A DNA stretch of 20,806 nucleotides, taken from the IMG/VR virus record IMGVR_UViG_3300018081_000023, positions 1 through 20,806 of that record. The stretch is one strand, 5' to 3'. The position numbers and the translations under genes were made by a program. Shown piece after piece: positions 1 through 18,952 of this stretch (position 1 is the stretch's first letter; each line of letters starts with the position of its first letter). The stretch comes from a virus. The notes below the pieces were generated by a model. The model was given only the letters and a program-made list of their open reading frames with translations. It had not been told where the DNA came from and ran no database searches.

Positions 1-1249
1 CGGGTCCGCCGGTGGGCCCGGTCGCGTTGAAGTTGCCGGGGTTGGATACAGTCCCCGCGCCGCCCGGACCGGGTCCGCCGGTGTCGAGGCCGGGTCCGCC
101 CTGCACGGCGCCGCCGAAGGCGGACGAGGGCGCGCCCTGTCCGCCCGGCGAGCCGCCCATGCTGCTCATGGCGCCGCCGTTGCCGGCGTTTAGGCCAGAG
201 CCGAGCCCGAACAGGCCGGGCCCGGTGACGCCGCCGCCGAGGGCGCCACCCTTGGACGCGGCGCCGAGGCCGGGGAGGCCCGCAGCACGGCCGATGCCGG
301 TGGACGTGGCGCCGAGGCTCTTGCCGACCGTGCTGGTGCCGCCGCCTTGGCCGTAGCCGCCCGCGCTGAAGCCGGACCCTTCCGTGCCCAGCCCCTGTCC
401 CTGCGGCCCGGTGCCCATCGAGGGACTGCCGCCGAGGCTGACGTTGCCGAGGCTGGGGCTGACGATCGAGCCGCCGAAACCGGCTGCACTGTTCGCAGCA
501 GCTGCCTCCGCGGCCGGGTCCGCCACGCCCTGAGAGAAGGCGGCGCCGGGGCCGTTGTTGCCGGACATGCCGGGCGTGCCGGTGGTGCCCATGCCACCAC
601 CGCGCCCTGCCGCGCTGGCGCCGCCACGACCACCGAGGCCGTGGCTTGAACTGATGCCGAGGATGCCGCCGCCGATCAGGTCGGCTGCGCTGCCGAGCTG
701 GCCGGTGCTGGGCAATCCGGCGGGGCCGCCCAGCATGCCGAGGCCGACTTGGTTGCCGATCGCGTTCCCCGCCTGCGCGATGCCGCCGCCGTAGATGCCG
801 ATGTCGCGTGATCCACTGCTTTCGATCGGCGCGGCGGCGGGCGCAGGCGTGCCCTCGACCGGCGCATCGGGTGTGGCCTCGATCGGCGTTGCCGGAGGCG
901 GCGCGGCTGGCGGCGGTGCGGCTGGCGGCGGTGCGGCTGGCGGCGGTGCGGCTGGCGGCGGTGCGGCTGGCGGCGGCGCCGCTTGCGGATTGCCGAGCGG
1001 GTTGGTGGCGGGCGGCGGCGGCGCGCCCGCCATGAACGGGCCGGTAACGGTGCCGCCCCAGTCGAAGCTGGGCGCCCCGGTCGGGCTACCGCCGGGTAGG
1101 CCGGCAGCACCTTCGGCGCCGGACGGAATGCCGCCGGCACCTTCGGCCTCGATCAGCGCCTGCACGATCGCGCGCCGACGCGCCTCGGCGGTGTCGGCCG
1201 GCGTGATGCCCCATCCGGTCGGAGGATCTGCAAAGCCGTAGTCCGACAT
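1..1249 (-). CDS. Gly/Pro/Ala-rich phage structural protein, 3'-partial
   Basis: The ATG at 1249 (MSDYGFADPPTGWGITPAD) lies 9 nt after the nozzle stop, behind a good AGGAG site. The frame runs open through 416 codons to the left edge, so the C-terminus is missing. Residues 15-40 form a short helix (ADTAEARRRAIVQALIEAEG). Residues 89-121 are a run of AAPPP pentapeptides encoded by a 15-bp tandem repeat. The rest is Gly-rich with Ser/Ala/Asn (GLGGRGGASAAGRGGGMG, GSPSMGTGPQGQGLGTEG), predicted disordered. Position after the nozzle suggests an internal (ejected) virion protein or tail component whose folded domain lies beyond the window. I do not recognise a family. Confidence 0.75.
   Translation of the reverse strand, partial: MSDYGFADPPTGWGITPADTAEARRRAIVQALIEAEGAGGIPSGAEGAAGLPGGSPTGAPSFDWGGTVTGPFMAGAPPPPATNPLGNPQAAPPPAAPPPAAPPPAAPPPAAPPPAAPPPATPIEATPDAPVEGTPAPAAAPIESSGSRDIGIYGGGIAQAGNAIGNQVGLGMLGGPAGLPSTGQLGSAADLIGGGILGISSSHGLGGRGGASAAGRGGGMGTTGTPGMSGNNGPGAAFSQGVADPAAEAAAANSAAGFGGSIVSPSLGNVSLGGSPSMGTGPQGQGLGTEGSGFSAGGYGQGGGTSTVGKSLGATSTGIGRAAGLPGLGAASKGGALGGGVTGPGLFGLGSGLNAGNGGAMSSMGGSPGGQGAPSSAFGGAVQGGPGLDTGGPGPGGAGTVSNPGNFNATGPTGGP
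903..977. repeat. 15-bp tandem repeat, five copies, encodes AAPPP
   Basis: The plus-strand unit GCGGCTGGCGGCGGT is repeated five times (903-917, 918-932, 933-947, 948-962, 963-977), the last differing at its final base. A degenerate copy precedes it. The unit is a multiple of three, so copy changes keep the frame of the Gly/Pro-rich gene. Near-identity at synonymous sites indicates recent slippage. Confidence 0.85.
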
Positions 1250-8373: not shown

Positions 8374-9396
8374 TCACGATCCCGGGACGCTGTCGTACAA
8401 CCGCCAGTTCATTTGCGGATTTACCATTGTCAGCTCGCCCATCCAGCCGATGAACTGCGCAATCGCGTCCTTGTCTATCGGCATTTGTCCCTCGCCCTCG
8501 AACAGCTTGTCGAAGTTACGCGAGGGGTGGTAGCGAAGACGGAAAGTATCCGTGTTCAACCCGAAGGTGGTATTGGCCGGCATATTACTTCCGATGCCGC
8601 CGTCCAACACGATCTCGGCCCGTTTTCCGCCGCCGATATACTCCAGCGAGGTGAAGCCGAGCTTGCCCATGCTCGTCTCGTTGGTGATGCGCTGGATGGC
8701 GACCGTTGCGGCATCGTAGGCGGCGTAGTGTTCCGGGGACATCACCAGCAGGTCGGCGTACTGCCGCCCGCGGCTCTGCTTGGTCATGATCGCGTTGATC
8801 AGCGGCCGGATCGTCGTCGCGCTGACCTGCGTTCCGATCGCGGCCGAGTAGGTATGCGCGTCATAAGTCTTGGTTTGCCAAATTGTGGCGGTGGCGCGAT
8901 CGATGCCGCCGTAGACGCCGGTGGTGGGCACGATCGGCAGCGCGGTGGCGAGCCCGGTGAGCTGCTTGCCGCCGTTGGCGGTGCCGTCGCCGTAAAGCGC
9001 CGCGTCCATCGTGTCTTCGAGGCTGCGCTCGGCCGCCTCCATATACGCATCCAGAACGTCTTCGAGCTGGTTCTCTCCTTGGTTGTTGAGGATCTCCTGC
9101 ATGCTCAGGACGATCGGCACGACCACCATCTTCGGGTCGAAGTAAGCGTCGTTGAACAGATCGATCGCCGGGTTGAGCAGCTGGTCGTAGCCGCTGTACC
9201 ACTGGGCGACCTGTTTCGCGATCTGCAGGGTCTGGCGGATGCGCGGCCCGCTGTAGGACTGCCACAACCCCTTGCGGCGCATGACCGCGAGGAGGGCGTT
9301 GTTGTTGCTGACGAGATCCTCATACGAGGACGAACGCTCTTCGACCGCCATGCTCAGGATCTGCTGATAGGCGGCGTTGGTGGTGATATTCGGCAT
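8374..9396 (-). CDS. Major capsid protein (HK97-like fold expected)
   Basis: This is the 340-aa shell subunit. The order of motifs is typical of phage coat proteins with no propeptide: N-arm (NITTNAAYQQILSMAVEER), E-loop region ending QVAQWYSGYDQLLNPAIDLF (62-81), the AYFDPKMVVVPIVLSMQEIL strand-helix (84-103) and the long spine helix NQLEDVLDAYMEAAERSLED (109-128). GDGTANGGKQLTGLATALP (136-154) follows, then the A-domain (ADLLVMSPEHYAAYDAATVAIQ). It starts ATG 9396 behind a weak GGGG and ends TGA. It follows the scaffold gene and precedes a structured intergenic region. The family is common in podoviruses and siphoviruses of alphaproteobacteria. Confident. Confidence 0.92.
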   Translation of the reverse strand: MPNITTNAAYQQILSMAVEERSSSYEDLVSNNNALLAVMRRKGLWQSYSGPRIRQTLQIAKQVAQWYSGYDQLLNPAIDLFNDAYFDPKMVVVPIVLSMQEILNNQGENQLEDVLDAYMEAAERSLEDTMDAALYGDGTANGGKQLTGLATALPIVPTTGVYGGIDRATATIWQTKTYDAHTYSAAIGTQVSATTIRPLINAIMTKQSRGRQYADLLVMSPEHYAAYDAATVAIQRITNETSMGKLGFTSLEYIGGGKRAEIVLDGGIGSNMPANTTFGLNTDTFRLRYHPSRNFDKLFEGEGQMPIDKDAIAQFIGWMGELTMVNPQMNWRLYDSVPGS

Positions 9397-11063: not shown

Positions 11064-11243
11064 CTACAGCAGCGGCGGCACCACGAACACCACCGGCAGG
11101 CCGGGCTTGCCGGTGACCTTGGTCACCGGCACGCCGCGGCCGTTGGCCGCTTCGGTAACCGGCAAGCCGGTGCGCGGCGCAATCGCAGTAACATCAACAA
11201 CAGGCAGGCCGCCAGCGGCGACCGTCACCACTGGCATGCCCAT
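11064..11243 (-). CDS. GLPV-repeat micro-protein (59 aa)
   Basis: The ATG at 11243 overlaps the upstream TAA (TAATG); the stop TAG is followed 7 nt later by the next start. The protein is almost entirely five imperfect repeats beginning G-M/L/V-P-V: GMPVVTVAAG, GLPVVDVTAI, GLPVTEAANG, GVPVTKVTGK and GLPVVFVVPP. Each predicts as a short beta strand and turn. I recall similar short 'GLPVTEAANG' proteins beside capsid genes in other alphaproteobacterial phages and prophages, of unknown function. Repeat regularity and tight coupling on both sides make it a real gene. A small decoration, cement or fibre-plug protein is plausible but not shown. Confidence 0.78.
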   Translation of the reverse strand: MGMPVVTVAAGGLPVVDVTAIAPRTGLPVTEAANGRGVPVTKVTGKPGLPVVFVVPPLL

Positions 11244-12223
11244 TACTTCTTGCCCTTCTTGGTGCGCTTGCTCGCCGGCTCGGTCTTCTTCGGCTTGCGC
11301 TGCTGCTCGCGCTTGGTCTTGCTGTCGCGCGCCACGGCGGTGAACTCAAAGGTGAGCACATCGCTCATGTCCTCGCCGCGCGTCACCTCGACGTCGACAA
11401 TCTCGGCCACGTCCGACACTGGACAATCGGCCGTCAACGAGGTCTGCGAGACGAACACAGTCGGCACCTCGGCATCGTCAAACACCACGACGCAGTTCGG
11501 CGTAAAGCCGGTGCCGGTCACGGTGAGCGCGACAGAACCGGAGCCGACCACCGCGGCGTCGGGATCGATGTCGGAGAGCACCAGCGGCGGCAGCTCATGC
11601 TTGGGGTCGTCGGGGATCTGGTTCGGGCCGTCCTCGCCGGTGTACACACGCGAGCCGGGCGGCTCGTTGATGCTGACCAGCCGGTCAGTCTCACCCAAGC
11701 CGCCGGAGCCTTCGCGCGCCTGCCGCTGGCGGTTCTCCGCCTCTTCCTTCTGGTCTTCGGCGTCCTTGGTGTGGTCGAGGCCGAGGCTCGGCCACTGCTC
11801 GACCTTGTTCTCCGGTTCGGGTGGTGCCACGCCGGCCTGACTTTCCATGCCGAGCCGCTTGGGATCGACGATGCCGCCGGGGTTGGGGACACGCTTGGTC
11901 GCCGGGCCGATCTCCTCGCGCGTCACGCTCGGAATGTTCGGGTTGACGTTGTCGCGCGTCTGCTGGCCACCGGCCGGATCGAGCCGGTCCTCCGGTCTGG
12001 TGCGCTCGATGAAGTCGAACGGCTTCTCCTCCAGCAACTCGCGCCGCTCGTCGCCCTCGGCCTTGGGCAACTCGCGCCGGGCCGGACCACTGGTGACACC
12101 TCCTCTCGCGGCCGGGTGCGTTCCATCATCAAATTCGCGCTGTTTCTGGCGTGCGCTTTCCTCGGCAGCCTGCTGCCGTTGCCGCTCGTTGCGGCCGTCG
12201 TCGGGCGTGCGTGGTGTGCTCAT
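11243..12223 (-). CDS. Second IPT/TIG domain protein with Lys-rich tail (326 aa)
   Basis: The start chosen is ATG 12223, overlapping the upstream stop as ATGA; a TTG at 12235 is a possible but less likely start. Residues 1-200 are charged, disordered-looking and rich in Arg/Glu/Gln/Pro (RNERQRQQAAEESARQKQRE). An IPT/TIG domain spans about 211-296: SDIDPDAAVVGSGSVALTVT, GTGFTPNCVVVFDDAEVPT, FVSQTSLTADCPVSD. The last 30 residues are strongly basic (KTKREQQRKPKK, SKRTKKGKK), suited to contact with DNA, RNA or an acidic surface. Its domain aligns by eye with that of the gene just upstream, suggesting duplication of the Ig module. Probably a minor structural or capsid-associated protein. The stop TAA overlaps the next ATG as TAATG. 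Confidence 0.78.
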   Translation of the reverse strand: MSTPRTPDDGRNERQRQQAAEESARQKQREFDDGTHPAARGGVTSGPARRELPKAEGDERRELLEEKPFDFIERTRPEDRLDPAGGQQTRDNVNPNIPSVTREEIGPATKRVPNPGGIVDPKRLGMESQAGVAPPEPENKVEQWPSLGLDHTKDAEDQKEEAENRQRQAREGSGGLGETDRLVSINEPPGSRVYTGEDGPNQIPDDPKHELPPLVLSDIDPDAAVVGSGSVALTVTGTGFTPNCVVVFDDAEVPTVFVSQTSLTADCPVSDVAEIVDVEVTRGEDMSDVLTFEFTAVARDSKTKREQQRKPKKTEPASKRTKKGKK

Positions 12224-12939
12224 GTGAACGTCCAATTGGTTGCGTTGCTGGGGGTACCACCGACACCGTTGACGACCGTGACCGGCACAGTGCCGGCGGT
12301 GGCCTTCTTTGGTGCGTTGGTGACCGTCAACGAGGTGGCGGACACATAGTTCGTCGTCTGCGCGATGCCGTTGACGTAGACGACGCTGGAGCGGTTGAAG
12401 TTCGTCCCGGTCACGGTCAACAGCGTGGTGCCGGCGCCGGAGACGTTGCTGGCGCCGCTCGCCGCCGACGTGGTCGGCGTGGCGACACCGGCCGTGCCGG
12501 TCAAGTAGGACGCATGGCTGGCATTCGGCGTGGCGGTGTAGGCGCCCAAAGTTGACACGGTCGGCAGCTGGCCGAGCGGGCCGGGATTGGTCGAGGTCGC
12601 GCTGACCACCACCTCGGTGCCGGCGCCCTCGTGCGCCACGGAGGTAGAAGCCGGGACCACGCCGTTGGCAGCGCCGGGGTACGATCCTTCGGTCCCGCCC
12701 GCCGTCGCACCCGTACCGCTCGCCAGCGCCGCGGTGTTGGCGGCGAACGCAACGAGCGATCCGGCCGCACCGTCGTCGAAGTAGGGCGGCGGATAGGTGT
12801 TGAAGATGTTGTTGTCGGCCGCGTCCGCATAAGTATTTTTCGTAAAATTCGGCGGGTTGGGCGGCGTGGCGCCGGTGAACGACATGTTCGTCGGCGGCGT
12901 CGGAGAAGGGGGAGTTACAGTCAACGCGCTCTGGGCCAT
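12220..12939 (-). CDS. IPT/TIG (Ig-like) domain phage protein (239 aa)
   Basis: The start is ATG 12939 with an excellent AAAGGAGA ribosome-binding site. The N-terminal 60 residues are Pro/Asn/Thr-rich (TPPTNMSFTGATPPNPPNF). A small-residue-rich middle (about 65-155) resembles a virion surface segment: AAGSLVAFAANTAALASGTGAT. The C-terminus (about 160-239) has the IPT/TIG immunoglobulin fold pattern: TLLTVTGTNFNRSSVVYVNG, then TTNYVSATSLTVTNAP and TVPVTVVNGVGGTPSNATNW. Such domains occur on capsid-decoration and tail proteins and often bind carbohydrate or stabilise the surface. It overlaps the next IPT gene as ATGA. Virion decoration is the most likely role; the domain call is firm, the role inferred. 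Confidence 0.8.
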   Translation of the reverse strand: MAQSALTVTPPSPTPPTNMSFTGATPPNPPNFTKNTYADAADNNIFNTYPPPYFDDGAAGSLVAFAANTAALASGTGATAGGTEGSYPGAANGVVPASTSVAHEGAGTEVVVSATSTNPGPLGQLPTVSTLGAYTATPNASHASYLTGTAGVATPTTSAASGASNVSGAGTTLLTVTGTNFNRSSVVYVNGIAQTTNYVSATSLTVTNAPKKATAGTVPVTVVNGVGGTPSNATNWTFT

Positions 12940-13039: not shown

Positions 13040-15091
13040 CTACCGGGCTCCCTCTTCTTGCCGCGGCCATACTGCCGGAGCGATCGCGCCGGTCAATCCC
13101 AAATAGCCCATCTGCGATGCCAACCCGGGAAGCGGGCGCGTCGGCTGCAGCGAGCCTTCGTCGGTCTTACCATAAGTCTTGTGTCCGGTCGCCCTGTGCG
13201 CGGCATCGACCTCGCGCAGCTGGTTGATCGACGGCGCGGGCAGCTTCGAGAGGCCGGGGAACATGTTCTCGTGCGGCTCGAAGCGATTGCGGATGCGGTC
13301 CCATTCCATCCACTGCGACATGAACAGGTTCAACCCGTTCTCGTCGGCAATCTTCTGGTTGAGGTCGAGCGCCTGCTTGTATGCGCGCCCCATCTTGTAG
13401 ACCGTCTCGGGCTCGCGCACCCATTGCGCCTGCTGCAAGTGCGGCGGGATGTTCGGGTTGACCTCGCCGGTGGCGAGGCGGAATTTTGGCGTCTTGGCAT
13501 CGCCGACATGGTCAAGCAGCATTTCGCCGATGTGGCCATCTGAGCCGCTCTTGGTCATCAGATTGTCGAAGTCGGTGGCGAGGTCCGCGGGCGCTGCATC
13601 CTCACCCTTCTTCGCGGCATCCGCGACGCGCTTCTCCTCGCGCTTATTCCAGCGACCGACACTCTGGTTCTCCCAAGCGGCGCGCTCGGCCGGATCGGCG
13701 AACAGGCCGCCGGTCTTTTCCAGCTCGCGCGCCATGTGACGATCGATCGCGGAAATAGCGGCATGGGCCGGGTCTTGCCACACCGTGCCGAACGAGCCGG
13801 TTTTCATCGAGAGGCCGGGTATCTGCGAGGATATGCGCTCGACCGCTTGGCTCCAGCTCTCGTTGGGGTCTTTACGGAAAAACGCCGGGTTCTCGCGAAA
13901 CATCTGCGCCATCTCGGCGACGCGCGAATAGTCGGCGGTGCCGCGTGTACCCAACCCGCCCTTCGGCTCTGCCTGTAGTCCAAAGCGCGCCGCAATGTTG
14001 TCGCTCACCAGCTTGCGCGCTTGTGGGGTCACTTCCTCGCCCGGCTTCCATGGGATCATGCTGGCGAGGTCGTTAAGCATCTCCGGCGAGCGCAAGCGGA
14101 GCCGCGACTGCGACACCTGATTGGGGAATAGCGGATTGTTCGGCGACGTCATGCCGAACACCAGACCGTTGAACACATCGGCATCGCTCGCAACGCCGCC
14201 TTCCGGCGTCATGGTGCGACCGAGCTTGCGCTGCATCTCGGCATGCAGCGTGCGATCGACGTTAGCCGGATTGATCGGATTGGCCTTCATGTGCAGCATG
14301 TCGGCATAGGTCCAGTTGCCACTGGTGCCGCCGGGGAGCTGAAACTCATTGCCGAGCATGTCCTTGTAAGTCTGCAGCGGCGACAAGGGCCCTAGGTTCT
14401 TCACGCCGTAATGCTCACCGAACGCCTGCATGTCTTCCGGCGTCATCTCCTTGAGCTGCTTGCCGCGAAACGTGACGTCGACGTTGTCGAGCGGATTGAG
14501 ACTGCCGGTCGGCGCGGGAAAGTCGGCAGGCGGGTTGTTGTGCCCGCGCGGCGGAAGCCAGTTGTCGACCGCAGCAACCTCGCCCAGCTTGCCTGTACGC
14601 GCTGGCGGCAGGCGCGTGCGAACGCCTGCTTCGGCCGTGTCCGAGCCGAGCACAGCTCCCGCGATCGCCGGAACGGCACGCCCGGCCTTGCCCAGCATCC
14701 TGACCGGGTTGAACGTGCTCGCGGCGTCGAGCACGTTGTCGGGCGCCAACGTCTCGCCGATCGCGTCAGCCGCGCGCATGCCGGAGAGCACCGGGCGCAC
14801 GTCGGCCGGGCCCTGCTGGCCGCTCAGGCCGCGCGCCACGTCGGCTGAACGCTGCACGCGCTGCGCCTGCGCATCATCGCGCGCCTGCTGGGCCTGCGCG
14901 CGATCATAGGCGCCGAACACGGCGTGCGGCGCGTCCTGCATGGCATACTCGTCCATGCCCGCCAGCCCGCCCATCTTGAACGCGCTGGCGACGTCGGGCT
15001 GGTCCGGCCAGCGACTGTCGACAGAATAGGACGGCTGATCGGCGGGGCCGCGCAGGTAGTCGAGCCCGAACGGATTGTACCGATCAGCCAT
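13040..15091 (-). CDS. Large phage protein of unknown function (683 aa)
   Basis: The start is ATG 15091 (MADRYNPFGLDYLRG), with no strong ribosome-binding site, 6 nt after the PEP-CTERM stop; the stop is TAG. The N-terminal 110 residues are Gln/Ala/Asp-rich and helical, then a small hydrophobic patch (AVPAIAGAVLG, about 140-150). The central part (about 200-450) is a folded, Pro- and aromatic-rich region with MTSPNNPLFPNQVSQSRLR and a KTGSFGTVWQDPAHAAISAIDRHMARELEKTG block. The 'IDRHMAR' element recalls a helical domain seen in other phage proteins (DUF7178-like), but only weakly. It has no signal peptide or clear membrane segment. Position between portal and capsid genes suggests an ejected or internal virion protein, or a DNA-associated factor; neither is shown by motif. 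Confidence 0.75.
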   Translation of the reverse strand: MADRYNPFGLDYLRGPADQPSYSVDSRWPDQPDVASAFKMGGLAGMDEYAMQDAPHAVFGAYDRAQAQQARDDAQAQRVQRSADVARGLSGQQGPADVRPVLSGMRAADAIGETLAPDNVLDAASTFNPVRMLGKAGRAVPAIAGAVLGSDTAEAGVRTRLPPARTGKLGEVAAVDNWLPPRGHNNPPADFPAPTGSLNPLDNVDVTFRGKQLKEMTPEDMQAFGEHYGVKNLGPLSPLQTYKDMLGNEFQLPGGTSGNWTYADMLHMKANPINPANVDRTLHAEMQRKLGRTMTPEGGVASDADVFNGLVFGMTSPNNPLFPNQVSQSRLRLRSPEMLNDLASMIPWKPGEEVTPQARKLVSDNIAARFGLQAEPKGGLGTRGTADYSRVAEMAQMFRENPAFFRKDPNESWSQAVERISSQIPGLSMKTGSFGTVWQDPAHAAISAIDRHMARELEKTGGLFADPAERAAWENQSVGRWNKREEKRVADAAKKGEDAAPADLATDFDNLMTKSGSDGHIGEMLLDHVGDAKTPKFRLATGEVNPNIPPHLQQAQWVREPETVYKMGRAYKQALDLNQKIADENGLNLFMSQWMEWDRIRNRFEPHENMFPGLSKLPAPSINQLREVDAAHRATGHKTYGKTDEGSLQPTRPLPGLASQMGYLGLTGAIAPAVWPRQEEGAR

Positions 15092-15097
15092 GATGCG

Positions 15098-15847
15098 TCA
15101 CGCCGCGAGCTGGCGGCGTCGCCGCGCGAAGCCCCACAGTGCACCGCAGGCGATCACGAGGCCGGGGATGCCCGCACCGACCACTGGGCCGGGTACCGCC
15201 TGCGGTACGAGAAAGAAGCTGTCCGGCCCGTCGTTGGCACCGCTGATGCGTGCATAGAAGATCAGCTGGTCGCCGAGCTGGATGTCGCTGCCGATGTTGA
15301 TGTCGAAACCGGACAACGTGTAATCAGGAAAGCCGGTGCCGTTGTTGATCGACGGGATCAGCGCGCCGCCGGGCTGCAGCAGCGAGTATTGCGCCAGCAC
15401 CGTGTGCTGGGTCAGGTTGAGCAGCGCGAACGCTTCGAGCGTCTGCGGCGTGCCAGTGTCGTTGACGTCGATGCCGATCGAGAACGTCAGGTTCGGATCG
15501 CCGTTCGCCGCCAGATACGCGCGCAGGAAGCTGCCGTCATACGGCAAGCCGACCGTGTCGACGCCGGGATTGGCACCACCGCTCACGTTGGTCGAGAAGA
15601 AGATCGCGTCGGACAGGTTGCCGCTGTTCTTGAAGTTGGTGTAACCGAACGTGGACGACTGCTGCGGCTGGTTGTCGCCACAGATGACGCACTGGATGTT
15701 CTGCGGCTGGTTGCCGCCCGGCACCACGTTCTGCAGCGTCAGGGTCGTTCCGGTGTTGGTCCACGTCTGGCCGCCGAGGACCACGTCGGCGCTGGCAGGT
15801 GAAGCAAAAGCGGCGAGCAGTGCCGCGGCGAGCAGGGTCTTGCGCAT
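15098..15847 (-). CDS. PEP-CTERM (VPxP-type) secreted surface protein
   Basis: This is a 249-aa exported protein. A Sec signal peptide occupies 1-20 (MRKTLLAAALL, cleavage after ASA). The mature part is a beta-rich, Gly/Asn/Thr-rich domain with a CVIC pair at 53-56. The C-terminus has the exosortase sorting tripartite: VPGPVVGAGIPG (about 216-227), a hydrophobic helix (LVIACGALWGFA) and an RRRRQ cluster. In the family, exosortase cuts near the PEP/VPxP motif and the protein is anchored or released at the cell surface. This motif flavour is common in Bradyrhizobium-like alphaproteobacteria (from memory). A strong AAGGAG precedes ATG 15847. It sits in frame with the virion operon, 17 nt after the membrane micro-gene and 6 nt before the next gene, so it is co-transcribed with capsid genes. 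Its role in the phage is unknown: cargo (moron), envelope modification or virion-associated. Confidence 0.85.
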   Translation of the reverse strand: MRKTLLAAALLAAFASPASADVVLGGQTWTNTGTTLTLQNVVPGGNQPQNIQCVICGDNQPQQSSTFGYTNFKNSGNLSDAIFFSTNVSGGANPGVDTVGLPYDGSFLRAYLAANGDPNLTFSIGIDVNDTGTPQTLEAFALLNLTQHTVLAQYSLLQPGGALIPSINNGTGFPDYTLSGFDINIGSDIQLGDQLIFYARISGANDGPDSFFLVPQAVPGPVVGAGIPGLVIACGALWGFARRRRQLAA

Positions 15848-15864
15848 GGGTCGGGCTCCTTGGG

Positions 15865-15954
15865 TTAAAACGCTCCTACAGACACGAACACTATCACCAT
15901 CGCGGCGATCGCAATGAGAATGATCAGCGTGATCGCCTTGTGATCGTCCTTCAT
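15865..15954 (-). CDS. Single-pass membrane micro-protein (29 aa)
   Basis: This short ORF begins ATG 15954, overlapping the portal stop as ATGA, and ends TAA 15865. It encodes a charged head (MKDDHKA), then one unbroken hydrophobic helix (ITLIILIAIAAMVIVFVSV, about 8-26) and a GAF tail. It looks like a classic single transmembrane segment. The TAA lies 17 nt before the PEP-CTERM start. Coding is supported by the exact translational-coupling overlap and by the hydrophobic pattern, which random GC-rich sequence would rarely give. Possible roles are a small holin or spanin-like accessory, or an envelope-interacting peptide paired with the secreted protein downstream; none can be chosen from sequence. 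Confidence 0.65.
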   Translation of the reverse strand: MKDDHKAITLIILIAIAAMVIVFVSVGAF

Positions 15955-18386
15955 AGCCCCGGCCTACCGGCTGGCGGCGGGCGCATCGCGGCCTGCTGCA
16001 GCTTGAACTGCTCGGCGGCGCGCTTCTGTTCGCCCTGTGCCGCGGTTTGCTGCAGCTTGAGCTGCGCCAGCTGCTTGGCGTGATCGATCTTGACCGCGCC
16101 CATCTGCAGGTCGCCCTTCTGCTTCTCGACGTCGAGCTGGTGCTTCTCGCGATCGGCGATCGCCTTGAGCTGCAGTGTCTGCGCCTTGGCCTGCTCGTCG
16201 CCCTGACGCGCCTGCAGCTCGGCCTGCTTGATCTTCTCGTTGGAGGCGATCTTGGCCTGCTCGTGGCCGTCGCGCATCGCCATTTCCTGCTTCTTCAGCT
16301 CGGCGTCGAGCTGGTCCTTCTGCTGCGCGTGAGCGATCTTCATCGCCTCGATTTCCTTGGCGGTGCGCGCCTGCATCGTCGCCGGGTCTTCGCCCTTCGG
16401 CGCTTCGGCCTTGGCCTTCATCAGCTCGGCGAGGTCGTCGATCGAGCCGTCGAGCGAGCGCCCGGCGCGATAGGGCGCGACGGTGAACTTGAGCACCTCG
16501 GAGCAGAACGCGCCGGTCTGCGGCTCCATTGCGATCATCTGGGCTAACTGCGGCAGCAACTGCGCGAGCACCGCAGTGAACTCGCTGCGGCGCTGCTTCT
16601 CGGCATTCTCATCAACCTGAATGGTGCTGTCGGTTTCGATGTCGAGGGTAAAGCACTTGGTGCGGCTGTCCTTGAACAAGGTCATCACCTGATCGAAGGT
16701 CGGCTTCTCGAGCACCGCCTTGAGCGTCTTGTGGCCCTCGTCGATGACGTCCTGCGCCTGCTTGAGCAGCTCCTGCGGGTCCTGCCCGCCGGGCGGCGGC
16801 GCGCCCGGCGGTGCCGCGCCCGGCGAAGCCGGAGGCGCGCCCGGAGCCGCACCGGGAGGCCCTGCCGGCACCGCACCCGGGGGAAGGCCCGGCGGCGGCG
16901 ACGGCGGTTGCTGCAACTTCTCGCGCGCCAGTGCGAGCTGCTGCTCCTGACGCTGAATTTGCGTTGCCAGCTCGCGCGCCTGCTTCTCCTGCATCTTCTT
17001 GGTCGGCAACAGGGTCTGGCTCATCTTGATGATCGTCACCTCGTCGAAATTCTCGGTGATGATTTCCGCCACGATGTTGACGAGGTCGCGCGCGATGCGC
17101 ACCAGCGCCTCCTGCTTGTCGCGGATGCGCGCGGAGCCGTACTGGGTCTTGAGTTGCTGCGCGCCGAGCGTCTCGCCCGGATCGGTGGCGCCGCGCATGA
17201 TGTCGCTCAGGCCCATGATCTGGTAAATGTCCTGAATGATCTGCTGGCGCAGCGTGACGCACTGCTGGATGGTCTGCGCGATCACCTCGATCGGCAGCCA
17301 GACGATCACCTCCTTGGAGCCGCCGAACGCGGCCCAGTTGGAAATCGGTACCAGCAGGCGGCCGGGCGTGTTGGTGGCGATCGCGGCTTGGATCGCCTCG
17401 GACAGCTCGGCGCCGCCGGCCGGATAAAACCCCTTCGCCTCCAGCGCCACGCTCAACGCATGGATCTTGGCGGTGAGCGTGTTGATCTCGTCGAGCTGGT
17501 CCTCGTACTGCAGCACGTCGGGCACCGGCACCAGCGAGCCACGCTGCAAGGTGCCGTAAGCCGGGCGCGGGCAGGGAAAGAAGTCGGTGAAATCAAGGTG
17601 CGGGTCATCCTCGTCGAGGATCTTGTCGCAGCCCTCGGCGACCCAGACCACGCGCTTGTTCGGACGGTCCCAGATTTCCCAGAACTTGGCGCGCTCGCGG
17701 TTGTCGGTGCCGCCGACTTCCTTGATGTCGCGGTCGACCTTGTAGTCGGCATCCTTGTAGCAATCGCCGGAGGTCGGATAGAAACGCTCGCGCGCCTCGG
17801 CGCGGGTCAGGTAGCTCGCGCCGGCGACCCACGTCACCTCGCGCCAGTTGCGCGAGACGGAATGCAGGAAATCGCGGCGGTGCTTGAAGTCGATGCAGAC
17901 GCACTCGTAGTCGTGGTCCTCGCCTTTCGGCTCATACCTGCACCACGCCACGCCGCGGCCGATCAGCGCGACGTCGTCGCGCACCAGCTTCATCAGCTCG
18001 TCGATGTGGCACTGGTCGAAGGTGGCGGAGATGCAGCGTTCGAGCACCTCGGATGCGGCCTGCGGCACTGGCCGGCGGTCCTTCCACTTCGGCGTGACGG
18101 CAGGTTGCGGGGGCGTGGCGTAGATGCTCGGGCCGATCACCTCGATGTTGGCCCAGAACATTTGAAATTCGCGATCGCGGCCGCTGGTGGAAAGGCGCTC
18201 AAGGTTGGCGTAGCGCTTGTCGATGTTGTCGCAACGCGCGTTCCAGTCCTCGAACGCCTTCTCGCTCTCCTTCAGCAGATTGAGCCACGCATGGCTCTCC
18301 TGCGGCTCGATGGTGGGATCGAACTCCAGATCGTCGTGGCGGATGTCAGCGTCGTGCGGGGCGGCGGGTCGATTGTATTCAGCCAT
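15951..18386 (-). CDS. Portal protein, podovirus-type (811 aa)
   Basis: This dodecameric ring at the special capsid vertex is the DNA entry/exit channel and terminase docking site. The start is ATG 18386 (MAEYNRP), after an AGGAGAG ribosome-binding site and overlapping the previous stop by one base. Residues 25-480 form the portal core: SHAWLNLLKESEKAFEDWNAR, FWANIEVIGPSIYATPPQPAV, a crown-facing IYQIMGLSDIMRGATDPGETLGAQQLK stretch and the long helix KTQYGSARIRDKQEALVRIARDLVNIVAEII. Residues about 490-532 are almost pure Pro/Gly/Ala. Residues about 667-800 are a long Lys/Gln/Glu/Ala-rich coiled coil, probably internal to the capsid. The size suits portals of the large podovirus type, and adjacency to terL supports the call. 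Its stop overlaps the next micro-gene as ATGA. Confidence 0.92.
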   Translation of the reverse strand: MAEYNRPAAPHDADIRHDDLEFDPTIEPQESHAWLNLLKESEKAFEDWNARCDNIDKRYANLERLSTSGRDREFQMFWANIEVIGPSIYATPPQPAVTPKWKDRRPVPQAASEVLERCISATFDQCHIDELMKLVRDDVALIGRGVAWCRYEPKGEDHDYECVCIDFKHRRDFLHSVSRNWREVTWVAGASYLTRAEARERFYPTSGDCYKDADYKVDRDIKEVGGTDNRERAKFWEIWDRPNKRVVWVAEGCDKILDEDDPHLDFTDFFPCPRPAYGTLQRGSLVPVPDVLQYEDQLDEINTLTAKIHALSVALEAKGFYPAGGAELSEAIQAAIATNTPGRLLVPISNWAAFGGSKEVIVWLPIEVIAQTIQQCVTLRQQIIQDIYQIMGLSDIMRGATDPGETLGAQQLKTQYGSARIRDKQEALVRIARDLVNIVAEIITENFDEVTIIKMSQTLLPTKKMQEKQARELATQIQRQEQQLALAREKLQQPPSPPPGLPPGAVPAGPPGAAPGAPPASPGAAPPGAPPPGGQDPQELLKQAQDVIDEGHKTLKAVLEKPTFDQVMTLFKDSRTKCFTLDIETDSTIQVDENAEKQRRSEFTAVLAQLLPQLAQMIAMEPQTGAFCSEVLKFTVAPYRAGRSLDGSIDDLAELMKAKAEAPKGEDPATMQARTAKEIEAMKIAHAQQKDQLDAELKKQEMAMRDGHEQAKIASNEKIKQAELQARQGDEQAKAQTLQLKAIADREKHQLDVEKQKGDLQMGAVKIDHAKQLAQLKLQQTAAQGEQKRAAEQFKLQQAAMRPPPAGRPGL

Positions 18387-18952
18387 CAGGCCGCTCTCCT
18401 CTTGATCGAGCGTGGCGACGACGTGGCGACGATCAGCCAGTCGCGCCGGGTGTCGCAGGCGAGCACGTCGAGCGTACCACAAAGATAGCCGCGTTCACGC
18501 CGGGTCACGTCCCATACCACCGACCGGCTCATCCACACCTCGACCGGCGAGCGGCGGCCGTGGCGGCGATCGTGCTGCGCCTTCTCGGCGATCTGGCTGG
18601 CGCGCGAGGCGGAGATGTTGAGTCGCTCGCCGATATCCCGATAGGTCAGCCCGGCGGCGCGCATCGCCAGCACGGTGGCGCCGCGCTCCCACGCGACCTG
18701 CATGGTGGCGACGACGCTGTCGTTGGTCAGTTCCGCCCAGTCGACGCGCGAGCGGCGCTGGCGCTCGGGCTGCGCCCGGGCGCGGCGCGCGTCCAGCTCG
18801 GCGCGGCGCGCCTCGCTTGTCGCGCGCGCCTCAGCCTGCGCCAGCACCAGCGCGGCCTCGAACTCGGCCTGCTTGGTGAAGTGGGCCAGCACGCGGCGCG
18901 TGCGCGCCCGCTCCGGCCGCGCCAAGCGAAGGTAATCGCGGTGCCACGTCAT
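18386..18952 (-). CDS. Helix-turn-helix DNA-binding protein (188 aa)
   Basis: The clearest element is a helix-turn-helix at about 102-125, LTYRDIGERLNISASRASQI. It has the 'Y-x-x-I-A/G-x-x-L-x-I-S-x-S-R-x-x-Q-I' form of sigma-70 region 4-like and LuxR-like recognition helices. The N-terminus (about 30-75) is a highly charged Ala/Arg/Glu helix, probably a coiled coil for oligomerisation. The C-terminus (138-175) is predicted beta with Trp and Cys residues. The start is ATG 18952, overlapping the zinc-ribbon stop as ATGA; longer forms lie inside that gene. The stop overlaps the portal start as TGATG. A small terminase subunit (DNA-recognising, oligomeric) or a late-gene regulator would both fit. 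No separate small terminase is visible in the window, but one could lie to the right of it. Confidence 0.75.
   Translation of the reverse strand: MTWHRDYLRLARPERARTRRVLAHFTKQAEFEAALVLAQAEARATSEARRAELDARRARAQPERQRRSRVDWAELTNDSVVATMQVAWERGATVLAMRAAGLTYRDIGERLNISASRASQIAEKAQHDRRHGRRSPVEVWMSRSVVWDVTRRERGYLCGTLDVLACDTRRDWLIVATSSPRSIKRRAA

Follow-up and report, generated by a model that had tools for sequence, protein, structure and literature searches.

The DNA analysed here is a 20,806-base IMG/VR viral record, taken whole and hereafter called the window, in which a block of virion genes lies on the minus strand (Table 1). The nearest TerL relatives of this phage are found in Rhizobium and Bradyrhizobium phages and in Rhizobiales genomes (46-64%). 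Between the portal gene and a 683-aa phage gene sits an ORF of 249 aa on the same strand as all virion genes in the window. A sequence-only reading of the locus had taken it for a host-type PEP-CTERM surface protein in a phage virion operon, citing a signal peptide, a C-terminal motif with hydrophobic helix and RRRR, a strong ribosome-binding site and gaps of 17 and 6 bp. All of these are present. Both gap lengths hold to the base: 17 bp separate the ORF from a small membrane ORF (29 aa) that begins within the last bases of the portal gene, and 6 bp separate it from the 683-aa gene. The spacing is that of an operon member. No promoter or terminator was apparent, and a scan of the window copy, restricted to the sigma-70 consensus, gave no more sites than shuffled sequences.

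Two further observations concern the window at large. A gene for a TIG/IPT Ig-like domain protein (PF01833) lies at 12220-12939 (minus strand), between the 683-aa gene and the scaffold and capsid genes, and a similar-looking stretch adjoins it at 11243-12235. ARAGORN calls a tRNA-Arg (tcg) at 1017-1095 (minus strand) within a G/P-rich ORF of the same strand (2-1249), which is perhaps spurious.

Table 1. Features of the window and second tailed proteins in other phage loci (prefixed by locus)
Feature	Position	Strand	Basis or remark
PEP-CTERM-like phage cargo gene, 249 aa	15098..15847	-	
Ribosome-binding site AAGGAG, 8 nt 5' of ATG	15856..15861	-	
Signal peptide MRKTLLAAALLAAFASPASA, residues 1-20	15788..15847	-	sequence; kept in all complete relatives
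Mature body, beta-sandwich (predicted), residues 21-215	15203..15787	-	alignment; AF2 model
C-terminal sorting tail (putative) AVPGPVVGAGIPGLVIACGALWGFARRRRQLAA, residues 217-249: motif, hydrophobic helix, basic cluster	15101..15199	-	alignment; same tail type in bacteria
29-aa one-helix membrane ORF, portal/cargo junction	15865..15954	-	
Portal gene, upstream neighbour of cargo gene	15951..18482	-	phrog_12082, E 5.9e-181
683-aa phage gene, downstream neighbour of cargo gene, 6 bp off	13040..15091	-	ATG at 15091
Capsid gene	8374-9396	-	homology to annotated major capsid proteins
Terminase	minus-strand virion block	-	phrog_2 and phrog_2472
Collagen-like and S74 fibres	window virion block	-	the block further has phrog_5107
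Second tailed protein	L049:8792-9523		
Second tailed protein	L054:8775-9554		
Second tailed protein	L061 to 9370		
Second tailed protein	L076:3318-4010		
Second tailed protein	L085:7466-7996		

The protein begins with MRKTLLAAALLAAFASPASA followed by DVVLGG, with AxA where expected by inspection, and ends in QAVPGPVVGAGIPGLVIACGALWGFARRRRQLAA; its tail consists of VPGPVVGAGIPG, a hydrophobic helix and RRRR. Between the two ends the alignment shows the body motifs GNQPQN..C.ICG.NQP, IGIDVNDT, NNGTGFPD and DGPDSFF, and no family was found for the body in Pfam, NCBIfam or PHROG. The signal peptide and a tail of motif, helix and basic residues were found without exception in the complete members that we inspected (about 90 loci), hence we regard the signals at both ends as not due to chance.

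For the mature body, the AF2 model gives a beta-sandwich (pLDDT 86, pTM 0.87), a fold which we predict with fair confidence. Foldseek searches of PDB and BFVD gave no match at E <= 0.001, and a sequence search found no related solved structure. VIA-align returned carbohydrate-binding or lectin-like beta-sandwiches with Z <= 7.2, which is within the chance range for such folds, and for this reason no function was assigned from this weak similarity.

To find relatives of the cargo protein we scanned viral contigs: a single query gave 41 relatives, and an alignment gave 229. A pattern-based scan of 84,980 bacterial and archaeal species with the same alignment gave 55 pattern matches, none of which was confirmed as a relative, and no relatives were found in INPHARED phages or in plasmids. 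Body profile searches gave no match in samples of 196 Bradyrhizobium-genus genomes and 398 genomes of the phylum, and a single distant homologue (L131, E 3e-10) in a sample of 385 alphaproteobacteria. At 230 aa, this homologue carries both a signal peptide and a tail of VPLPA type, an anatomy suggesting that the phage body may derive from a bacterial exosortase-dependent protein. The term host-type thus describes the tail, while the body belongs to a phage family; the database check proposed earlier gave abundant viral kin and next to no bacterial kin. The cargo gene is often trailed by two small companion genes (L003, L007, L014, L019, L030, L037, L041 and others), one for a membrane protein of 65-92 aa (11 loci) and one for a secreted protein of 80-99 aa with the pattern.YLRDK.GEHYATI..DGTRT.YD..GKV (10 loci), neither matching Pfam or PHROG.

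It could be argued that the gene is a recently captured host gene, or a misassembly, under no phage-specific selection, as the phage tail can hardly be told apart from those of hosts. We find this very unlikely given the distribution just described (229 viral contigs against none confirmed among the species scanned, none in the Bradyrhizobium sample and one distant homologue in the alphaproteobacteria) and the dN/dS of the body, which is 0.05-0.20. For the tail the ratio is 0.10-0.44, with dS of this short segment near saturation. From these ratios both body and tail look to be under purifying selection.

The position of the gene differs between phages. In the siphovirus-like contigs L002-L015 and L029 it lies between TerL (phrog_9) and the major head/protease gene (phrog_617), in the window between portal and 683-aa gene, and in other phages beside tail-fibre or early modules. 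The body nearest to that of the window (93% identity) is from L002, though the two phages are unrelated. The sister of the window phage, L034 (TerL 88% and portal 86% identical), has at the corresponding junction the portal gene, a 30-aa counterpart of the small membrane ORF in the same place, and then directly the homologue of the 683-aa gene; the cargo gene is absent there, and L034 carries its own copy upstream of TerL. A tyrosine integrase was detected in 4 of 31 viral records, some of the remaining 27 being fragments, and each of the four has the cargo gene 123-1615 bp from it (naive chance about 5e-5, with few independent cases).

The varied sites in unrelated phages, the empty site in the sister phage and the integrase proximity lead us to conclude that the window gene is, as judged from its genomic context, a phage cargo gene ('moron') and not a virion gene. 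Presence or absence at a site in close relatives together with unrelated genomic places, by which morons are recognised, are both seen here. The cargo reading offered earlier is thereby strengthened by the mobility of the gene and by its phage-borne family, whereas the exported virion factor offered beside it is disfavoured. The tight spacing and the site between portal and capsid genes would fit a virion or virion-assembly protein with incidentally hydrophobic ends. That identity was rejected on synteny, and we give it hardly any credence, since the sister phage lacks the gene at that site, unrelated phages carry it in unrelated places, all complete members have both signal peptide and tail, and no PHROG is matched. 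To the question raised earlier, whether relatives sit between portal and capsid in other phages, the answer is scattered sites, such as the TerL/head-protease junction. Nor is the family, as had been named as a possible refutation, a normal virion family without export signal.

Further we looked at the tails, which fall into the classes VPGPxxGAGLPG (most members), PEPxxW (AVPELSTWFMMILGFAG), VPLPAxVW and VPLPAVGSG. A body tree built without the tail requires no fewer than 12 class changes; on well-supported branches alone the GAGLPG label changes 10 times, PEPxxW 6 times and VPLPAxVW 3 times. Some switches between VPLPAVGSG and GAGLPG could be point changes, both tails being alike, but the PEPxxW and VPLPAxVW changes would be hard to explain in this way. 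In five phage loci a second secreted, tailed protein of unrelated sequence was found, its gene directly following the family member in L049 and L054, and its tail class is that of the family member in five of five. The exchange of tails would be best explained by selection to match whichever exosortase class the present host has. Two loci (L057:1157-1933 and L058:8001-8777) have a hybrid tail, AVPGPTVGA followed by VPEPATWAMMLLGFAG (VPEPATWAMM), which looks like a VPGPxxGA tail largely replaced by a PEPxxW tail.

When compared with profile models, the window tail matched neither PEP-CTERM nor VPLPA nor similar models. Among 33 scanned members of the family, PF07589 was matched by four, TIGR02595 by three (weakly), PEPxxWA-CTERM (NF035944) by three and VPLPA-CTERM (TIGR03370) by four, with E-values of 1.9e-5 for PEP-CTERM, 4e-6 for VPLPA-CTERM and 4e-7 for PEPxxWA-CTERM; members with PEPxxWA-CTERM- or VPLPA-CTERM-like tails are, for example, L018, L042, L093 and L026, L054-L064. 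As PF07589 and TIGR02595 do not match the window protein, we file it as PEP-CTERM-like and not as a PEP-CTERM member. The PEP-CTERM label of the sequence-only reading hence holds for close relatives, which match PEP-CTERM, PEPxxWA-CTERM and VPLPA-CTERM, but not in the strict sense for the window protein. Failure against such models had been named as a refutation, and the window tail does fail them; on the other side, the same tail is found on unrelated Bradyrhizobium proteins, where it tracks an exosortase, as described below.

Searching the species collection for the DNA pattern VPGP[IV][AV]GAG[LI]PG gave only 12 stretches, clustered in a small number of MAGs from Bradyrhizobium and other alphaproteobacteria. 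These stretches are the C-termini of open frames, mostly of clearly secreted, unrelated proteins, some being short or cut by the contig end. With a profile of the phage tail we detected up to 10 tailed proteins per Bradyrhizobium-genus genome, the best match having E 2.5e-18 across 32 residues. In three genomes the tail genes lie in a conserved exopolysaccharide (EPS) locus with Poly_export, Wzz/kinase, sugar transferase and acyltransferase genes.

The exosortase model PF09721 gave no match at E <= 10 in the tail-bearing genomes, while the control genome G006 yielded XrtV. This absence at first suggested a processor other than an exosortase, an idea that was dropped once TIGR04178 found a divergent enzyme. 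TIGR04178 scored over its cut-off in four genomes in the genome search, with the enzyme 20-40 kb from tail genes in three of them; the cut-off is 23 bits, the G127 enzyme reaching 24.2 and that of G004 22.9, just under. The enzyme has the residues Cys (APCSSL), Arg (NVTRI) and His (IHNQWGD), and no named exosortase type (XrtA-XrtZ) matched it; by its sequence it is apparently an unnamed type. Divergent exosortases with VPGPxxGAGLPG/APGPIAGAGLP tails were seen in G127, G060, G002, G004 and about 18 more Bradyrhizobium-genus genomes (L137-L140, L143-L148).

Among the 196 Bradyrhizobium-genus genomes, 26 have the tail and 23 the enzyme: both occur in 21, the tail only in five, the enzyme only in two and neither in 168 (Fisher p 1.8e-21, uncorrected for relatedness). 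In seven genomes (G018, G056, G112, G133, G139, G164, G182) a tail gene lies less than 1 kb from the enzyme gene, and the tailed proteins near the enzyme, where read, are of 80-100 aa with APGPIAGAGLP...RRRR. In two draft genomes the exosortase signature was not found (AP_8, an alphaproteobacterial MAG with four tails) or was matched only below cut-off (AP_7). None of the 31 viral records holds an exosortase, hence the host must supply the enzyme.

Motif-helix-basic tails would anchor a protein without any enzyme, and the window tail fits no curated sorting model. The tail could then be a membrane anchor only, the uncut inner-membrane protein facing the periplasm and blocking DNA entry with no exosortase processing. 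We judge this quite unlikely, as neither exact VPGPxxGAGLPG, PEPxxW and VPLPA motifs nor switching among recognised sorting classes would be called for in a pure anchor, and as the host tail tracks the exosortase. The anatomy, the tail exchange and the pairing of tail and exosortase in Bradyrhizobium instead support an exported protein with a host-exosortase-type tail, as the sequence-only reading had proposed, and it is well supported that the protein would work like a PEP-CTERM protein. The likely reading, which we favour, is a mobile cargo gene of the phage whose product is an exported, host-sorted envelope protein, the sorting itself being what we infer from anatomy and co-occurrence.

For the window phage we infer the following course. 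The cargo gene would be transcribed together with the neighbouring phage genes, and the signal peptide would direct Sec export. The tail would anchor the exported protein, after the model of Haft et al. 2006 (PMC1569441), and the divergent host exosortase would recognise the VPGPxxGAGLPG motif at the membrane surface and then cleave, the beta-sandwich domain passing outward to the cell surface or the exopolysaccharide layer. In a last, hypothetical step, the domain now exposed would alter the surface of infected cells or lysogens such that related phages adsorb or inject less (superinfection exclusion); alternatively, EPS-linked adhesion would be altered.

Superinfection exclusion, taken alone, is a hypothesis that we put forward tentatively as one possible role. 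The integrase adjacency, as a feature of gene order, favours lysogenic conversion or exclusion, while in the other phages the late-operon position would also allow a role in the EPS or at lysis. As 27 of the 31 viral records, some of them fragments, have no tyrosine integrase, exclusion in lysogeny may not be the whole story. With the same sorting, the benefit might lie in the EPS or lysis phase, where cells, debris or matrix would be coated against re-adsorption of progeny, or infected cells would aggregate or form biofilm. Consistent with this are the place of the gene among late virion genes in the window and the HK97-like group, the EPS locus encoding host proteins with the same tail, and the low number of records with an integrase. 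However, in integrase-bearing phages the gene occupies the usual site of lysogenic conversion, and no adhesin or polysaccharide-binding family was recognised for the body (Pfam, PHROG, solved structures); we regard such a benefit as rather unlikely. For the host-sorted cargo protein, surface remodelling would, as our leading hypothesis, serve the exclusion of other phages.

Exosortase systems are common in environmental bacteria, and their role is poorly understood. Our literature search on phages and PEP-CTERM or exosortase found no paper with phage-encoded substrates. Beyond the earlier reading, two outcomes are the most interesting: a family carried by phages in which the sorting tails are interchangeable, and an unnamed pair of tail and exosortase. 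On balance we think it probable that phages infecting soil Rhizobiales and other proteobacteria rely on host exosortases, with one conserved surface domain whose tails are swapped to the exosortase class of the host, and that the commonest tail (VPGPxxGAGLPG-CTERM) defines this unnamed pair. A body that is kept while the tail alone is exchanged would be natural evidence that tails are sorting addresses of class-specific enzymes, and the family would show phages exploiting the exosortase route to the host surface or matrix. The exchange of tags on a constant body suggests that viruses may remodel the surface of the cells they infect by means of the host's sorting machinery. In Bradyrhizobium a testable new tail/exosortase pair is indicated, and further, tail class might aid host prediction for uncultivated phages.

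Compared with known systems, the cargo protein resembles phage morons and superinfection exclusion proteins such as Ltp of S. thermophilus phages (PMC3952083) in being predicted as exported and directed to the host surface and in being a single cargo gene, and, as with morons and lysogenic conversion genes, it lies near the integrase in temperate relatives. Unlike in Ltp-type proteins, delivery to the surface would use an exosortase tail and not a lipobox or plain transmembrane anchor, and exclusion is hypothetical here. In the PEP-CTERM/exosortase (EpsH) system, proteins are exported by Sec, anchored by the tail, recognised by their motif at the membrane surface, cleaved and transferred outward (Haft et al. 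2006, PMC1569441). By the marks given there, the window protein has the signal peptide and the tripartite tail of membrane-edge motif, hydrophobic helix and basic cluster, while PF07589 and TIGR02595 do not match. The host tails are also alike, lying in an EPS locus, being several per genome and co-occurring with a multi-helix Cys/Arg/His enzyme. In contrast to PEP-CTERM proteins, the cargo protein is carried by a phage, its VPGPxxGAGLPG motif falls outside all curated models, and the paired Bradyrhizobium enzyme reaches TIGR04178 only, and neither PF09721 nor a named exosortase type. Some tails of the family are like PEPxxWA-CTERM (NF035944) and VPLPA-CTERM (TIGR03370), yet here the protein bearing them is a phage one, and its nearest relatives have a tail of a different class, the phage family mixing several tail classes on one body.
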